Source: a virus
Length of the DNA: 49,922 bases
Reading direction: 5' to 3' (one strand)
IMG/VR virus record: IMGVR_UViG_3300042987_001073
Span: 1 to 49,922 of that record
Shown here: positions 29,253 through 48,208 of the stretch, one piece after another
Position numbering within the stretch: position 1 is the stretch's first letter
Layout: every line of letters starts with the position of its first letter
Notes under the pieces: model-generated
Databases searched by the model: none
Seen by the model: only the letters and a program-made list of their open reading frames with translations
Told to the model about the DNA's origin: nothing
Position numbers and translations under genes: made by a program

Positions 29253-31979
29253 TCACGCGTGGTAGAGCGGTGGCAGCGTTGCGCGGTGAACCGATCGAGC
29301 CAATCTTTCCTCCTCGCGTTCCTCGCGGCGGACAGCCATGCCGATAGACCGCAGATGCTTCAACGCTTGCGTCGCCGAGTCAGTCAGGTCTCGATACCGG
29401 CCGTTGGGGAACACGGCGGCCTCGTCGATCAAAAGTTGGGCGAAGTCTCGGCACACCAGACTATCTGGATCATCCTCATCCGAGCGGCTGGCCGGCACAT
29501 GCACGAACCCGTCGGCCCACAAGTGGACCACGGCCATCGCTCGAAAATACTTGTCCCCTTCCGGGTCGATCAGCTCAACACCCCAGCCCTCATTGGCATA
29601 GAGCCGCAGCATCTCTTGAGCCACGGTAATGCCGCTGGCCTTGGCCTCGATCAGCAGCCGATCAACTCGAAGCCGCTTGCATTCGTAGGCGACCCACTCG
29701 ACCAGCCCCCACTGTTTTTTGGCGCGATCCACCCATAGGCGCTCTGTCTCGCCGGGCTTCCGCTCGACCTCCGGGCCGTGCATCTCAAGATGCTTGCGCC
29801 ACGCTTGCAAAAGCATGACCTTCGGGTTGCCATGCTTGTCGCGGTAGATGCCCCAGACCGAGAACCCTGACGGGTCGTTGCGCTCGTTCTTGGTGTAGGC
29901 GCTATCCAGGGACGCCACGATGTATTCCATAGGCGGCGGCGACTTGCCGATGGGTATTTCCTCGTAGACCCACCAGTCCCGTTTGAATATGCCGCCACCC
30001 CGTGGCTCCGGGGATTGCTGGTATTGGCCTGCCCACAAGAACGGGTTGCGCCGGAACCTCGACAGCGTGTCTTCCGGGTAGCGCTCTGGCCACGCCAACT
30101 CGCCGTATTCCGTGCGAGGATCGGTCCAGCCGATCGATGTTGTGTAGCGCCTGCCATCCCACTCCATCGGGATCATCAGGTGCTCGTAGTCCGGCTCGTG
30201 CGAGATGATGTGGCCAGCAACGTCGTTCTCGTGAACCCGCTGCATGATGACGACGATGGCCGACTTTTGAAGATCGTTGAGGCGATTGCTGAGTGCTTCG
30301 TCGAACAACCGAACCGTCTTTGATCTAATCGCGTCTGACTCTCCGTCCGCCACGTTATGCAAATCGTCAGCGGCGAGGCGGTCCCCGCGCTCACCAGTGG
30401 ATACGCCTCCGATCGACGATGCCAGCTTCCATCCCGTTTTGTTATTGGCTGGCTTCTCGACGCCGTCCGACGTCAACGAAAACCGATCGCCGTAAAGAGT
30501 TTGGTACTCTGTGGATTTGATCAGGTCCTTGAACTTGCCGTTGTCGCGCTCCGTGAGATGCACAGCGTACGAAAACGATAGTGTCCGAAGGTGCGGGAGG
30601 TTCATTGGCCCCCATTCCCAAGCCGGCCAAAAGCAATTTGTAAGCATGCTGTTGTGAACTGCGATACCATTAACAACAAACGACGCATCTTCATCCACCG
30701 TTAGACACCTGCATTCGCCAGAGCCATTGGCCACAACCGACATGACCTCGTCGGTGTAGATTGGCGGCTCAAACCGATCCGCGAAAGCAAGCGCCGCGAT
30801 ATCACGCTTGCGCTTCATCAAGCCGGGAAGCTTTGCAATCTTTGCGACTTCGTTACGTGTGCTTGATTGAATGATGTACGACACATACTCGCCGCCCGGC
30901 TGTGCCTTTGTCTCAAGATCATGCGTGTGGCGACGAATGCGCGCTTCGATGTTTAGTATGCCCAGTGCCTTCAGAAGATCGTGCGCCAAGTCAAGGCTTA
31001 CGGTGCTGGCCGTAGCCAGCATAGTTGTCTTTTTGTTGGCGTGTCGAACGGTGACGTTGCCGTCGCAGGACCAATAAGCACCCACAAAGTTTGCAATAGC
31101 CGTTGGGCCAGACTCCATAACAGCTTGCGGGATACGCTTTGTGTAACTGTTCGACAGGTACAGCCCGTGACGTTTTAGCCATTCCAAAACCGGTGGCTCG
31201 TTCGATTTGTCTTTCCATCGACCTTCCGTCGATTTCAAAACAACCTTTGACGCCTTTACTCGCTCATTCGGATGCTTGATCTGGTAAGCGTAGAAGCCGC
31301 ACGCAGAGGCGCAGTAAATAAAGTCGTCAATGGCATCTTGGTCCATGTTCACGAAGGCAAGCGACCGTTGCGATATGCATCCGTCGCCAACTAAGTATCC
31401 AAGAAGACGAGCCTCTTCCGGCGTCATGCTTTGATGGTCAGGATAAGATTCCAGTCGCGGCACGCCAACATAATTACCGGGTCTCAGATTTTTCAACTCA
31501 ACCCAACCGTCTGGTGTGAGGAACGGATGATCTTCCGCCGCCCTAACTTCTCGCCCAGCCCAAGTCGTTAGCTTGAGAAGAGGAAGCACGCCCTGCTCGT
31601 GCACTGCCGTAACGCGTCGCAGGCGCCCCCTGTGCGTGACGACCATATCGTCGACCTTAACGTCGCCGAGTCGTTTGTACCCCTTATCGGTTAACACCGG
31701 CTCGTCTACGTGAACGGGCTTGCTGAATCCTGGCGGGACGTTAATCAACATTCTTGTGATCTGTCCGTACGTCACAGCCTCTAGGTGCTCGCAGATCGCT
31801 CTGATTGCCCACCCATCGACAAACGGCGTCTTGGGTTCCAGCACGTGCCAGAAGTACCGTACGAACTCGAATAGGCCACCCGGCTGGCAATGTTTCTGCT
31901 TGGCCTGACGGCGCAGCAACTCCCGTCTCAGCGCTATCTGGCGTTCCAGAATAGGGCGACGGGAGCCAAGCGAGGACAT
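29253..31979 (-). CDS. terL: Terminase large subunit, interrupted by an in-frame intein
   Basis: 908 aa precursor; about 552 aa after splicing. The extein reads INVPPGFSK (to residue 87) then SMLTNCFWPAWEWGP (from 444), so rejoining restores a GFSKS Walker A loop. Walker B is probably RLAADD (about 534-539). The C-terminal RNase H-like nuclease shows Asp692 in SLDSAYT, Glu778 in LIEAK and Asp864/867 in YRDLTDSAT. It powers DNA packaging through the portal and cuts concatemers. Without splicing the ATPase loop is broken, so packaging should depend on splicing. It is preceded by terS and a small gene and followed by the InPase gene. Confidence 0.9.
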   Translation of the reverse strand: MSSLGSRRPILERQIALRRELLRRQAKQKHCQPGGLFEFVRYFWHVLEPKTPFVDGWAIRAICEHLEAVTYGQITRMLINVPPGFSKPVHVDEPVLTDKGYKRLGDVKVDDMVVTHRGRLRRVTAVHEQGVLPLLKLTTWAGREVRAAEDHPFLTPDGWVELKNLRPGNYVGVPRLESYPDHQSMTPEEARLLGYLVGDGCISQRSLAFVNMDQDAIDDFIYCASACGFYAYQIKHPNERVKASKVVLKSTEGRWKDKSNEPPVLEWLKRHGLYLSNSYTKRIPQAVMESGPTAIANFVGAYWSCDGNVTVRHANKKTTMLATASTVSLDLAHDLLKALGILNIEARIRRHTHDLETKAQPGGEYVSYIIQSSTRNEVAKIAKLPGLMKRKRDIAALAFADRFEPPIYTDEVMSVVANGSGECRCLTVDEDASFVVNGIAVHNSMLTNCFWPAWEWGPMNLPHLRTLSFSYAVHLTERDNGKFKDLIKSTEYQTLYGDRFSLTSDGVEKPANNKTGWKLASSIGGVSTGERGDRLAADDLHNVADGESDAIRSKTVRLFDEALSNRLNDLQKSAIVVIMQRVHENDVAGHIISHEPDYEHLMIPMEWDGRRYTTSIGWTDPRTEYGELAWPERYPEDTLSRFRRNPFLWAGQYQQSPEPRGGGIFKRDWWVYEEIPIGKSPPPMEYIVASLDSAYTKNERNDPSGFSVWGIYRDKHGNPKVMLLQAWRKHLEMHGPEVERKPGETERLWVDRAKKQWGLVEWVAYECKRLRVDRLLIEAKASGITVAQEMLRLYANEGWGVELIDPEGDKYFRAMAVVHLWADGFVHVPASRSDEDDPDSLVCRDFAQLLIDEAAVFPNGRYRDLTDSATQALKHLRSIGMAVRREEREEERLARSVHRATLPPLYHA
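30651..31718 (-). mobile_element. Intein with LAGLIDADG homing endonuclease in the TerL Walker A loop
   Basis: Residues 88-443 of the TerL precursor (356 aa). The N-terminal block begins PVHVDEPVLT, so position 1 is Pro instead of Cys/Ser. Block B has His151 (AEDHP) but Ala148 where Thr is usual. Block F reads CRCLTV with Cys425 at the F:4 position. The C-terminus is IAVHN followed by Ser. The two dodecapeptide motifs are LLGYLVGDGC (192-201) and FVGAYWSCDG (298-307), indicating a homing endonuclease. No position-1 nucleophile plus a block-F Cys suggests class 3 splicing, although the class-typical Trp and Thr are not seen. Confidence 0.88.
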
Positions 31980-42165: not shown

Positions 42166-42193
42166 TTGCTAGACGTGCTAGACAAGCTATACG
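42166..42193 (+). promoter_or_regulatory. Candidate rightward (early) promoter with operator array
   Basis: -35 TTGCTA (42166-42171), 16-bp spacer, -10 TATACG (42188-42193). Three 7-bp sites at 9-bp spacing overlap it: GCTAGAC (42168-42174), GCTAGAC (42177-42183) and GCTATAC (42186-42192). An alternative promoter is TAGACA (42179-42184) with TATATT at 42201-42206. Confidence 0.5.
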
Positions 42194-42387
42194 GATATGC
42201 TATATTAGAATCAGACGACGGCAAGCAGGCCCGTAGCGCGCTACGACCGGGACACACAAGAGACAGCAGAACGGCTGCCTCCCGGAAGTAGAGAAACAAA
42301 GGCGCTGGACATCCTGATGCCCGACCAAGCTGGAGCCCACCAGCGCAAAGTGCGAAGCGTGGGCGAACGGCTGGTTCTCGCGTCACA
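42194..42387 (+). other. Early-operon 5' leader, no convincing gene
   Basis: The stretch between the rightward promoter and the first ribozyme has an imperfect stem (GCGCTGG / CCAGCGC, near 42303-42354). An ORF opening at ATG 42317 would encode 49 aa but runs through the whole first ribozyme and ends inside the next gene, so it is not accepted. Confidence 0.45.
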
Positions 42388-42451
42388 TGGCGAAACGGCA
42401 ATTCAAGCAATTGGGTTGCTGTCCAGGGCTTACGGCCCTGCTGATGAGCCA
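42388..42451 (+). ncRNA. Type II hammerhead ribozyme 1
   Basis: Order along the RNA: stem II strand TGGC (42388-42391), GAAA (42392-42395), stem III CGGCAA / TTGCTG (42396-42401 with 42416-42421, one G-U), cleavage-site TC (42422-42423) after G, stem I CAGGGC / GCCCTG (42424-42429 with 42435-42440, loop TTACG), CTGATGA (42441-42447), and stem II strand GCCA (42448-42451). All invariant core bases of a hammerhead are present. Predicted cut is after C42423. The Shine-Dalgarno GGAG and the ATG at 42463 follow. Confidence 0.9.
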
Positions 42452-42462
42452 CGGAGACTGTC

Positions 42463-42693
42463 ATGATGCACACCGCGAACATGAACAACCGCGACTTGAT
42501 CTGCTGCGGGCACCGGGTGCCCAATTCGTACATGAGCGCCGATGATCTAGCGTGGGCGGCCAAGTCCAACGTGATCCAACAGGACGCAAACGGCAATTGG
42601 TTCCACACCATGATCACTGATCGGGATCGCAAGTCCCGGCAGAACTACTGGAACCCGGATACGGGTCCTTGGCGCAAGGGTGTCAACTACTGA
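42463..42693 (+). CDS. Early small protein, unknown function
   Basis: 76 aa from ATG 42463 with GGAG 6 nt upstream. Contains CCGHRVPNSYMSADDLAWAA and a C-terminal aromatic segment (NYWNPDTGPW). It is the first gene of the early operon and follows ribozyme 1. The next ribozyme begins 3 bases after its stop. No family was recognised. Confidence 0.6.
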   Translation: MMHTANMNNRDLICCGHRVPNSYMSADDLAWAAKSNVIQQDANGNWFHTMITDRDRKSRQNYWNPDTGPWRKGVNY

Positions 42694-42695
42694 AA

Positions 42696-42761
42696 TGGCG
42701 AAACCTAGCCCGGCGCAATCCGGGCGATGGTCTGCCGCTTAAAGGCGGCACTGATGAGCCA
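42696..42761 (+). ncRNA. Type II hammerhead ribozyme 2
   Basis: TGGC (42696-42699), GAAA (42700-42703), stem III with outer CC/GG and inner CCCGG / CCGGG (42709-42713 with 42720-42724), cleavage TC (42731-42732), stem I TGCCGC / GCGGCA (42733-42738 with 42745-42750), CTGATGA (42751-42757), stem II GCCA (42758-42761). The CCTAG..CGATGG internal loop of stem III is identical in ribozyme 3. Predicted cut is after C42732. GGAG follows one base later. It begins 3 bases after the stop of the first gene. Confidence 0.92.
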
Positions 42762-42772
42762 CGGAGAACGAC

Positions 42773-43066
42773 ATGACCGCAGTCACCGAAATGACCAAGG
42801 TGCTGGCCGACGCCATGAAGGCGGAAGGCAAAGCTGCTCCGGCTAACATGTACCTGTCTTGCGCTCGCGTTTACGTCACCGTCTACGGACCGAAGCTGCG
42901 CACGGTCAAGGCTGCCGCAAAGCGCCTTGGCATCACGTGGACGCATCGCGGCATCTACGTCGGGTACGATAACGCCAGCGGTCGCGAGTACATGAAGGGT
43001 GAGGCAATCGCAGCCGCTCTGAACGCGGCCGGTGTCGATGCCTACCAGCACACTGACGAGGATTGA
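42773..43066 (+). CDS. Early small protein, unknown function
   Basis: 97 aa from ATG 42773, 6 nt after GGAG. It begins with a helix (TEMTKVLADAMKAEGK) and contains KAAAKRLGITWTHRGIYVGY, with a putative helix-turn followed by aromatic strands. The stop codon is immediately followed by the third ribozyme. Unknown function. Confidence 0.6.
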   Translation: MTAVTEMTKVLADAMKAEGKAAPANMYLSCARVYVTVYGPKLRTVKAAAKRLGITWTHRGIYVGYDNASGREYMKGEAIAAALNAAGVDAYQHTDED

Positions 43067-43130
43067 GATCGAAACCTAGGGCAGCAACCCTGCCCGATGG
43101 TCCGCTGGTTAGGCCAGCGCTGATGAGATC
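43067..43130 (+). ncRNA. Type II hammerhead ribozyme 3
   Basis: GATC (43067-43070), GAAA (43071-43074), stem III with CC/GG and GGCAG / CTGCC, cleavage TC (43101-43102), stem I CGCTGG / CCAGCG (43103-43108 with 43114-43119, loop TTAGG), CTGATGA (43120-43126), GATC (43127-43130). The stem II pair has changed on both sides compared with ribozymes 1 and 2 (TGGC/GCCA to GATC/GATC), which is compensatory change. It begins at the base after the previous stop codon; AGGAG and ATG 43142 follow. Predicted cut is after C43102. Confidence 0.93.
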
Positions 43131-43141
43131 AGGAGAAAGAT

Positions 43142-44032
43142 ATGCTGATGACCGACATCAAGCCTGCCGCACACAAGTTTGAAAAGGCCGGTCTTGGCCG
43201 GGCGCCGTTCAAGTTTGTGATGCTGATCTCGCTGCTGCCGCCGTCTCTGGCCGCGCAGAACCCATCCGCATACAACAACGCACTGCGCGAAATCCATTAC
43301 GCCAAGAAATCGCTTGGCCTTGCGCATCTTGGCTGGTGCGAGCATTGCGGTATGACGCTGATGAACAACTACATTATCCGCGACGCCGACGGCATGGCAC
43401 ACGTGGTCGGTTGCGACTGCGTTAAGTACACAGGCGATGCCGGCGTCATTCGTGATGTCGAGAAGGCGGAAAAGAAGCGCCAGAAGCAAGCCCGCAAGTC
43501 CAAGGCGCTTACCAAGAAGGAAGCCAAGGCGCTGGCGGCCAAGCGGACCCGCAAGGAGAAGCGCCGCGAGTTCTTCCTGAAGCACGAGGCGGTCCTGCGG
43601 CTGGCATACGCGAACCGGCACAAGTCCAAGTTCGTCGGCAAGCTGGCGATGGACTTCCTGCGCTGGGGCTCGCTGTCGCCGCGCCAGATCAAGGTGATTG
43701 AGCCGTCGATCAAGCGGGCCGACGAGATCGCAGCCGAACGTACGGCTGAAACGGCTCGCATCGCCAAGGCGGTGCACGTCGGCGCGGTCGGGGAACGGGT
43801 TGAGGTAGAGTTGACCCTGGTCAACTGGATCACGAGCCGCGATGCATGGTCGCCATGGCGGATCGCGGTGTTCCACGATCGCGCCGGCAACACCATCAAG
43901 ACCTTCGGCAAGGTGCCTGACGTTGCGTCGATGGAGAACGGTAACTTTCGTCTGGTCCGCTGCACGGTGAAGGCGCACAGCGAGTTTCGAGACGAAAAGC
44001 AGACAATGATCACCCGACTGAAACTGCTGTAA
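43142..44032 (+). CDS. Early protein with Cys/His zinc-ribbon-like segment
   Basis: 296 aa from ATG 43142 with AGGAG 6 nt upstream. A cysteine cluster CEHCG...VGCDC (about residues 66-93) suggests metal binding; a long, very basic helix with KKEAKALAAKRTRKEKRREF follows (about 115-145), then a beta-rich C-terminal domain (VEVELTLVNWITSRDAWSPW, IAVFHDRAGNTIKTFGK). This architecture fits a nucleic-acid-binding protein, but no family was named with confidence. Third gene of the ribozyme-linked set. Confidence 0.6.
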   Translation: MLMTDIKPAAHKFEKAGLGRAPFKFVMLISLLPPSLAAQNPSAYNNALREIHYAKKSLGLAHLGWCEHCGMTLMNNYIIRDADGMAHVVGCDCVKYTGDAGVIRDVEKAEKKRQKQARKSKALTKKEAKALAAKRTRKEKRREFFLKHEAVLRLAYANRHKSKFVGKLAMDFLRWGSLSPRQIKVIEPSIKRADEIAAERTAETARIAKAVHVGAVGERVEVELTLVNWITSRDAWSPWRIAVFHDRAGNTIKTFGKVPDVASMENGNFRLVRCTVKAHSEFRDEKQTMITRLKLL

Positions 44033-44040
44033 CCCGACCA

Positions 44041-44070
44041 GCCCGCCCCACCTTAGACGTGGAGGCGGGC
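44041..44070 (+). repeat. Intergenic hairpin in the early operon
   Basis: GCCCGCC/CCAC pairs with GTGG/GGCGGGC around a 7-nt loop (11 bp with one bulged A). No T-run follows; it may be a stability hairpin, and stands where the upstream intergenic spaces carry ribozymes. Confidence 0.55.
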
Positions 44071-44100
44071 CGAGGCGTTAGAAGTAGATGGAGGATCGAT

Positions 44101-44598
44101 ATGGGAACGCAGATCACGCATACGATTACCGACCCGACCGGCGCCGTTCACACTCGTCGCTCGTCTGGCCGCCGATACAGCCACGCTGTCGTCGCCATCA
44201 ACTCCGACGGGGCATGGGCACCGCTCACGTGGTGCTCGCGTCGCGATCTCGCCGAGAAGGCGATGGGCCAGTGGCGGTACTACAAGGAGAAGAAGGTCGT
44301 GCCGGTGGCGCGGTCCGAGAAGGAGACGAAAGAAAAGCCGGCTGCACAGTACCCCGGCACCGAGTTCGAGGTGGGTGGCCTGCGGTTTGCAGACACCATC
44401 ACCCAGTGGGGGCACGAGATGATTGCACAGCACAACGGCTGGAAAATCGGGCTGCTGCGGTGCAACGGCGGGTTCAAAGCGTACGGCCAACCGATCAATC
44501 CCGACCCGAAGCGGTATCAGTTTGTTCGCACCAAGGGAGTAGCGAAGCTGGAGAACACGGTCGCCAAAGTATTGAAGCTTATCGCCGAAGCGGAGTGA
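44101..44598 (+). CDS. Early protein, unknown function
   Basis: 165 aa from ATG 44101 with GGAGG nearby; the frame is open upstream but without a ribosome site. Contains QITHTITDPTGAVHTRRSSG and SHAVVAINSDGAWAPLTWCS, then a central charged region and GWKIGLLRCNGGFKAYGQP. The repeated short beta patterns suggest a small mixed fold. No domain was recognised. Confidence 0.55.
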   Translation: MGTQITHTITDPTGAVHTRRSSGRRYSHAVVAINSDGAWAPLTWCSRRDLAEKAMGQWRYYKEKKVVPVARSEKETKEKPAAQYPGTEFEVGGLRFADTITQWGHEMIAQHNGWKIGLLRCNGGFKAYGQPINPDPKRYQFVRTKGVAKLENTVAKVLKLIAEAE

Positions 44599-45566: not shown

Positions 45567-45929
45567 ATGAACCTCGCATCAGAACTTGCACACTACACCG
45601 GCACTGAGCAGTGGTATCGGCACGCTTTGAACCGCAGCGTCACATACACCGATGGCGTTCGCCATTTTGCCGATGCGGCCGGCGCTCACTGGTTCCTCGA
45701 CATCCTGGCAACGGAGATTCCGCCGTTCGCCAAGCGCGAGGGGTTCCTGGCGATCAAGATGGTCGTCGCCAAGAGCAAGGCCAAGATCGCCGCAGACGAC
45801 GGCAACGGCAAGGTGCTGTGGAAACGCGCCATCCGTTTCACCGATTGCCCGGAAGGCGAGTGGATGTTTTTCATGGCACCGGGAGGCCCGCAAGGGACGA
45901 TCGTGATCATGCTGCCATCGGAATGGTGA
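45567..45929 (+). CDS. DUF6876-family protein
   Basis: 120 aa from ATG 45567. It matches the short family with the motif ELAHYTGTEQWYRHALNRSV, then YTDGVRHFADAAGAHWFLDI and a central KMVVAKSKAKIAADDGNGKV. DUF6876 proteins are widespread in bacteria and phages with unknown function. The family is recognised by motif. Confidence 0.7.
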   Translation: MNLASELAHYTGTEQWYRHALNRSVTYTDGVRHFADAAGAHWFLDILATEIPPFAKREGFLAIKMVVAKSKAKIAADDGNGKVLWKRAIRFTDCPEGEWMFFMAPGGPQGTIVIMLPSEW

Positions 45930-47650: not shown

Positions 47651-47727
47651 CTGGGTGTAGCTCAGTTTGGTAGAGCGCTCGGCTTGGGACCGAAAGGCCG
47701 TGGGTTCGAATCCCTCCACCTAGACCA
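47651..47727 (+). tRNA. tRNA-Pro (anticodon TGG)
   Basis: Full cloverleaf with encoded CCA. Acceptor CTGGGTG/CACCTAG (one G-T), anticodon loop CTTGGGA, T-loop GGTTCGAATCC. The first pair of the anticodon stem is a C-A mismatch. Confidence 0.88.
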
Positions 47728-47734
47728 CCTACAT

Positions 47735-47811
47735 GATCTCGTAGCGCAGCCGGATAGCGCGTCGGTTTCCGAAGCCGAAGGCCGGTGGTTCGAGTCCACC
47801 CGAGATCGCCA
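47735..47811 (+). tRNA. tRNA-Arg (anticodon CCG)
   Basis: Acceptor GATCTCG/CGAGATC perfect, anticodon loop TTCCGAA, T-arm GGTTCGAGTCC, CCA encoded. Reads CGG, a common codon in high-GC hosts. Confidence 0.9.
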
Positions 47812-47813
47812 AT

Positions 47814-47889
47814 AGTCCCGTGGCCCAACGGATAGGGCGCCGATCTACGAAAGCGGAGATTGCAGGTTCAAATCCTGCCGGGACTGCCA
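47814..47889 (+). tRNA. tRNA-Arg (anticodon ACG)
   Basis: Acceptor AGTCCCG/CGGGACT, D-stem GCCC/GGGC, anticodon loop CTACGAA, T-stem GCAGG/CCTGC, CCA encoded. One A-G mismatch in the anticodon stem. A34 would need conversion to inosine by host TadA. Confidence 0.85.
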
Positions 47890-47894
47890 AGAAT

Positions 47895-47971
47895 GCCCCT
47901 GTAGCTCAGACGGTAGAGCGGCCCTTTTGTAATGGGCAGGTCGTCGGTTCGAATCCAGGCCAGGGGCACCA
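47895..47971 (+). tRNA. tRNA-Thr (anticodon TGT)
   Basis: Acceptor GCCCCTG/CAGGGGC, anticodon loop TTTGTAA, T-loop TTCGAAT, discriminator A and CCA. The pair closing the anticodon loop is T-T. Confidence 0.88.
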
Positions 47972-47973
47972 AT

Positions 47974-48053
47974 GCCGAGGTAGCTTATAGGCTAAAGCGC
48001 CATCCGTGGTCGGGATGGAGAACCTTGGTTCAAATCCAAGGCCGTAGGCCCCA
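47974..48053 (+). tRNA. Degenerate tRNA-like gene (His GTG or Thr GGT)
   Basis: 80 nt with D-stem GCTT/AAGC, anticodon stem CCATCC/GGATGG and T-stem CTTGG/CCAAG, ending CCCCA. The acceptor stem has two mismatches. The loop GTGGTCG gives GGT if T33 is conserved, whereas C73 before CCA points to tRNA-His and GTG. The extra bases and mismatches suggest decay or an unusual tRNA. Confidence 0.45.
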
Positions 48054-48055
48054 AT

Positions 48056-48129
48056 ACCAGTGTCGTCTAGCGGCAAGATGTCGGTTTCCAACTCCGAAGA
48101 CGCGGGTTCAATTCCTGCCACTGGTGCCA
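48056..48129 (+). tRNA. tRNA-Trp (anticodon CCA)
   Basis: Acceptor ACCAGTG/CACTGGT, anticodon loop TTCCAAC, T-arm GCGGG/CCTGC, discriminator G typical of Trp, CCA encoded. T-T at the base of the anticodon loop. Confidence 0.87.
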
Positions 48130-48132
48130 ATG

Positions 48133-48208
48133 GCCGGGTTAGCTCAACTGGCGGAGCGCCGCACTTTGACTGCGGAGGCTGCAGGTTCAAGTCCTGCACC
48201 CGGTGCCA
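48133..48208 (+). tRNA. tRNA-Gln (anticodon TTG)
   Basis: Acceptor GCCGGGT/ACCCGGT (first pair G-T), anticodon stem CCGCA/TGCGG, loop CTTTGAC, T-stem GCAGG/CCTGC, CCA encoded. Its last base directly abuts the stop codon of the converging gene at 48209. Confidence 0.9.

Follow-up and report, generated by a model that had tools for sequence, protein, structure and literature searches.

Three type II hammerhead ribozymes lie in a row on the plus strand of a virus contig from IMG/VR (the window: the whole record of 49,922 bases, from a virus of bacteria or archaea). They fall within 743 bases with a single gene between neighbours, and so belong with the phage hammerheads known to cluster around single genes. 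The identification is secure: the motifs, their intact cores, their covariation, and their placement were all observed directly. We consider it probable, at roughly three chances in four, that these ribozymes self-cleave in cis on the rightward early transcript, splitting off the leader and single-gene mRNAs with protected ends; this reading is a prediction from sequence.

Hammerhead 1 (42388-42451) occupies the leader of gene 1. Its stem III has 12 bp and a GCAA loop, and it was recognised by a covariance model made here (R1, below), by Rfam RF02276 below its cut-off, and by a check of its core. Hammerhead 2 (42696-42761) lies between genes 1 and 2, and hammerhead 3 (43067-43130) between genes 2 and 3; in both, stem III contains a CCUA/GAUGG internal loop. 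All three copies have the same order of strands, from 5' to 3': the stem II 3' strand; GAAA; stem III, closed; UC; stem I, closed; CUGAUGA; and the stem II 5' strand. Stem II is open and stems I and III are closed by loops, the three-stem form that defines type II. The catalytic core is unbroken in each copy (C3-A9, G10.1-C11.1, G12-A14, A15.1-U16.1, and C17) and agrees with the consensus CUGANGA, G10.1-C11.1, GAA, A15.1-U16.1, and H17.

The copies are 58-70% identical in pairwise comparison. Stem I is formed by CAGGGC/GCCCUG in copy 1, UGCCGC/GCGGCA in copy 2, and CGCUGG/CCAGCG in copy 3; stem II is UGGC/GCCA in copies 1 and 2, and GAUC/GAUC in copy 3. An earlier note on this DNA had claimed a full hammerhead in type II order in all three gene leaders, with stem I strands that differ yet pair and stem II strands that change on both sides. 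The sequence, a descriptor scan, and the intact cores bear this out, down to the individual strands. Moreover, the predicted cleavage sites, most likely after C42423 (copy 1), C42732 (copy 2), and C43102 (copy 3), are those that the note had named. In ViennaRNA predictions copies 2 and 3 reach the hammerhead fold unaided; the favoured fold of copy 1 alone disrupts stem II.

The descriptor, run over both strands of the window, returned three matches, just these copies, and none in 200 shuffled sequences. Model R1 was built from 33 aligned non-redundant viral sequences, the window sequence being excluded. It found the three copies alone in the 49.9-kb record: hammerhead 1 at 42.5 bits (E = 1.3e-10), hammerhead 2 at 69.7 bits (E = 6.4e-19), and hammerhead 3 at 72.9 bits (E = 6.8e-20), the fourth-ranking site having E = 0.76. 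The shuffles and this independent model rule out a chance origin for the motifs. The earlier note had also looked to the Rfam type II model, RF02276 (Hammerhead_II): all three copies were matched, but only at 22.3 bits (copy 1), 26.9 bits (copy 2), and 20.3 bits (copy 3), under the gathering score of 37. The PaP3 hammerhead was recovered neither by R1 nor by Rfam.

The note had further held that the helices should covary in related phages, and they do so strongly. In the alignment of the 33 sequences, which share the structure and had first passed a descriptor demanding pairing, 14 of the 18 pairs have changed on both sides and 98.8% of the paired cells are indeed paired; sliding the partner strand lowers this to 31-45%. 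A less biased pairing figure comes from a degenerate DNA pattern (GAAACCTA, gap, GATGGTC, gap, CTGATGA) scanned through IMG/VR with no pairing demanded. This yielded 43 matches on 40 stretches, and stem I pairs over at least 5 bp in 40 of the 43. The other three look like chance matches.

The phage type II hammerheads collected here separate into two forms, a division that is this analysis's own reading of loci fetched by pattern rather than sampled at random. In the first form, stem II has 2-3 bp and the stem I hairpin is mostly 21-23 nt; loop I pairs with the tail that follows stem II to a greater extent than in shuffled sequences (4.18 bp, versus 3.59), the pseudoknot usually amounting to at least 4 bp. 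In the second, compact form, stem II has at least 4 bp and the stem I hairpin is 17-18 nt in 104 of 133 sequences, versus 6 of 118 in the other form (Fisher p = 2e-35). An A precedes stem II in 112 of these 133, and the 17-nt class carries a U-N-A-N-G-like loop (U in 68/75, A in 56/75). Loop-tail pairing in compact hammerheads with short loops is at background, 2.50 versus 2.47 shuffled, and thus absent.

The window copies have the compact form. With RF02276 they have in common the order of strands, the catalytic core, and the presence of three stems. However, that model has a stem II of 2 bp and a longer, UGGU-type stem I loop, able to pair with the tail in such phage copies, whereas the window copies have a stem II of 4 bp, a 5-6-nt UUANG-type loop, and a score beneath the cut-off. 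A loop I-tail pseudoknot was sought in the three copies and not found, the best pairing being 2 bp in each. At its own cut-off, RF02276 detects 38 hammerheads in 7 loci where the other form predominates, and none in 10 loci in which the compact form is abundant. What is added here is that a compact, pseudoknot-free subtype is common in IMG/VR contigs and is overlooked by Rfam at its cut-off. The survey thus indicates that phage hammerheads are under-annotated, a common subtype escaping detection.

The CCUA/GAN-GG loop in stem III is favoured in many phage type II hammerheads, including those of loci L125-L164 as well as window copies 2 and 3. Of 74 hammerhead-like matches selected only for CCUA and GGUC, 60 have GAN directly before GGUC; Watson-Crick continuation of the stem at this loop is rare (8/74). 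We take the UA/GAN loop of copies 2 and 3 to resemble the UAA/GAN motifs and the 11-nt tetraloop receptor. A literature search found no paper on docking of a GNRA tetraloop to the CCUA/GAUGG motif.

Placement relative to genes was evaluated in 250 non-redundant type II hammerheads from the fetched phage loci. The element starts between -4 and +5 nt from a stop codon in 68% of them, compared with 6% of random sites and 10% when the opposite strand is taken. In 64% (random, 13%), a ribosome site and its start codon follow within 60 nt, and stop and start are both close in 51% (random, 2%). Any functional account must explain this flush placement behind stop codons, which is a measurable rule. 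The survey includes 48 arrays with at most 10 copies per locus, and a single ORF occupies 52 of the 93 intervals between neighbouring hammerheads; in a narrower earlier set, one-ORF intervals numbered 36 of 73, versus 4% at random. In four IMG/VR contigs (L063, L189, L074, and L021) the row is 7 to 10 type II hammerheads long; in L063, short genes separate them and the spacing is about 250-400 bases. Matches to the subtype also occur in bacterial genomes (Inquilinus, Microvirga, Devosia, Bradyrhizobium, and Holdemania). Among 299 genomes of the bacterial family to which a Nitratireductor genome (G026) belongs, searched with the aim of reaching Agrobacterium and with stricter filters on, there was one weak match.

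In the window array, gene 1 (42463-42693, plus strand) encodes 76 aa and gene 2 (42773-43066, plus strand) 97 aa. Both come from the ORF list and lack a family match in PHROGs and Pfam; no phage relative of gene 2 was found. Gene 3 (43142-44032, plus strand; 296 aa) belongs to PHROG 2319, of unknown function, with distant relatives in Aeromonas phages (25-27% identity) and a short C-terminal match in Vibrio phages. As the earlier note had seen, copies 2 and 3 start right behind stop codons: copy 2 begins 2 nt past the stop codon ending at 42693, and copy 3 directly abuts (0 nt) the one ending at 43066. An ATG lies 11 nt past the end of each of the three copies, and the predicted cut falls 39-40 nt ahead of it. 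The note's statement that the ribozymes separate early genes holds for copies 2 and 3; copy 1 sits in the leader, and so would remove it. We infer that the genes are early from one promoter-like site and from their divergence from the structural genes. The site (42179-42206, plus strand) is a putative promoter of a rightward operon and consists of TAGACA, 16 nt, and TATATT preceded by TG, with 10 of 12 matches in a consensus scan.

Several features near the array were also noted. Structure is predicted in the leader upstream of hammerhead 1 (42213-42387, plus strand), with z -2.3 for 42213-42350. Hammerhead 1 itself is crossed by an ORF of about 49 codons (42317-42466, plus strand) that overlaps the first bases of gene 1. 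The next gene joint (44030-44080, plus strand) has no hammerhead; it has a strong hairpin (-27 kcal/mol for a 71-nt segment, z -3.1), followed by a ribosome site and then by an ATG at 44101.

The probable course of events, from cleavage and its timing to the protection of the new ends and an effect on expression, would be as follows. The RNA would fold and then be cut as polymerase passes each ribozyme. The first cut would take off about 210 nt of leader, and the next two would part genes 1, 2, and 3, with gene 3 at the head of what follows. Each downstream message would begin with a 5'-hydroxyl on the 17-18-nt stem I hairpin, 39-40 nt ahead of the AUG. Each upstream piece would end in the stem III hairpin plus one nucleotide bearing a 2',3'-cyclic phosphate. 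Such ends, a 5'-hydroxyl on a hairpin and a flush 3' hairpin with a cyclic phosphate, would be expected to slow decay, given how bacterial RNA turnover works, mainly in E. coli. Both should withstand 5'-monophosphate-dependent RNase E, 3' exonucleases, and poly(A) tailing, and each gene would therefore have a half-life of its own. The predicted 5'-terminal hairpins have energies of -10.4, -10.8, and -9.9 kcal/mol, and the 3'-terminal hairpins of -13.6, -14.6, and -13.0 kcal/mol.

The position of the copies at gene joints would fit equally well if the ribozymes dampened the early genes, the cut exposing the RNA to decay or uncoupling the translation of neighbours (it would sever any such coupling). 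However, the stable hairpins on both new ends are expected to slow decay, and a pure destruction signal would hardly need one copy per gene; dampening is therefore unlikely.

A more speculative proposal, which we regard as doubtful, concerns the subtype as a whole. A distinct kind of type II hammerhead, compact and free of a pseudoknot, would be in wide use among phages; its stem III would often contain a receptor-like UA/GAN loop, and the current Rfam model would overlook it. Because the element fits closely between a stop codon and a ribosome site, ribosomes terminating or initiating nearby would gate its folding, and cleavage would report on the translation of neighbouring genes. The placement fits such gating, and the plain compactness of phage genomes explains it equally well.

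The cutting of an early transcript into single-gene mRNAs, proposed in the earlier note, is the reading best supported by position, and it has been published before. In prophages, Perreault et al. (2011) described hammerheads clustered around single genes and proposed a role in cutting the transcript (PMC3088659). In these prophage arrays (the Agrobacterium tumefaciens triple around ardA, Azorhizobium caulinodans, and Clostridium scindens), as in the window, neighbouring hammerheads flank single phage genes, and the proposed role, cutting long phage RNA, is the same. The genes themselves differ. Moreover, cleavage of the A. tumefaciens triple array was demonstrated both in vitro and in E. coli (PMC3088659), whereas that of the window array is a prediction. 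Neither the kind of element nor the idea of tandem processing is new, as phage clusters have been known since 2011. The role of hammerheads in bacteria and phages was nonetheless described as an open question by de la Pena et al. in 2017 (PMC6155905), and the window array is a clean test case for it, with a single gene in each interval, clear sites of predicted cutting, and a core that is simple to knock out.

Perreault et al. (2011) also described the pseudoknotted form, and stated that many hammerheads are without a pseudoknot (PMC3088659). Their intergenic Bcep176 hammerhead carries an A6C core change and is reported as still active, with k_obs < 0.1 per min (PMC3088659). An element recovered here from Burkholderia phage Bcep176 (L308, 12167-12238) resembles the window copies: stem II has 4 bp (GGUC/GAUC), the stem I hairpin has 17 nt and the loop UUAUG, and the element lies immediately behind a stop codon. 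Unlike them, it has the A6C change, is the single strong match in its phage, and lacks the CCUA/GAUGG loop. From the A6C change and the intergenic place we infer that it is the published hammerhead. The sole member of the compact subtype with a published rate is thus slow, but it has a core defect that is absent from the three window copies.

Ribozymes flanking one gene, as in 52 of 93 intervals, would also yield the end chemistry required to circularise a freed single-gene RNA (5'-hydroxyl and 2',3'-cyclic phosphate), whether RtcB, some other ligase, or the reverse reaction closed the circle. This is very improbable: the proteins scanned, covering part of the ORFs, include no RNA ligase match, and Perreault et al. 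(2011) sought circular or spliced products and found none (PMC3088659). Equally remote is the notion that the motifs are spreading repeats or recombination cassettes, carried along with accessory genes and cleaving incidentally. It draws on the 58-70% identity of the copies, on the absence of the array genes from the closest terminase relative, and on the scatter of the subtype across many contigs; however, compensatory change and intact cores in diverse phages point to selection on the RNA fold, and placement is flush with genes and strand-specific. Finally, leader hairpins that govern ribosome access without being ribozymes would suit the location directly before ribosome sites, but are scarcely credible, given that all three copies keep the complete catalytic core and that the cut is predicted to raise ribosome-site exposure in copy 2 only, leaving copies 1 and 3 unchanged.

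The minus strand of the record carries structural and packaging genes: major head protein, portal, terminase, and endolysin. The best terminase relative, G001 (72% in the best segment), has the structural module in common; none of the early genes and no hammerhead match were found in it. Because its contig stops next to the homologous structural block, loss and gain of the early genes are indistinguishable there. Two of 24 further terminase relatives have one hammerhead match each. Searches for relatives of the gene 2 and 3 proteins in IMG/VR, for DNA-level matches in phages or plasmids, and for a related virus with the same array genes each returned none.

The terminase large subunit (29253-31979, minus strand) owes its length of 908 aa to an intein with a LAGLIDADG domain (PF14890, PF14528), an insert absent from the closest relative. 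Seven tRNA genes are clustered at 47651-48208 (plus strand), and the ORF at 45567-45929 (plus strand) has a clear match to DUF6876 (PF21781, E = 8e-30).
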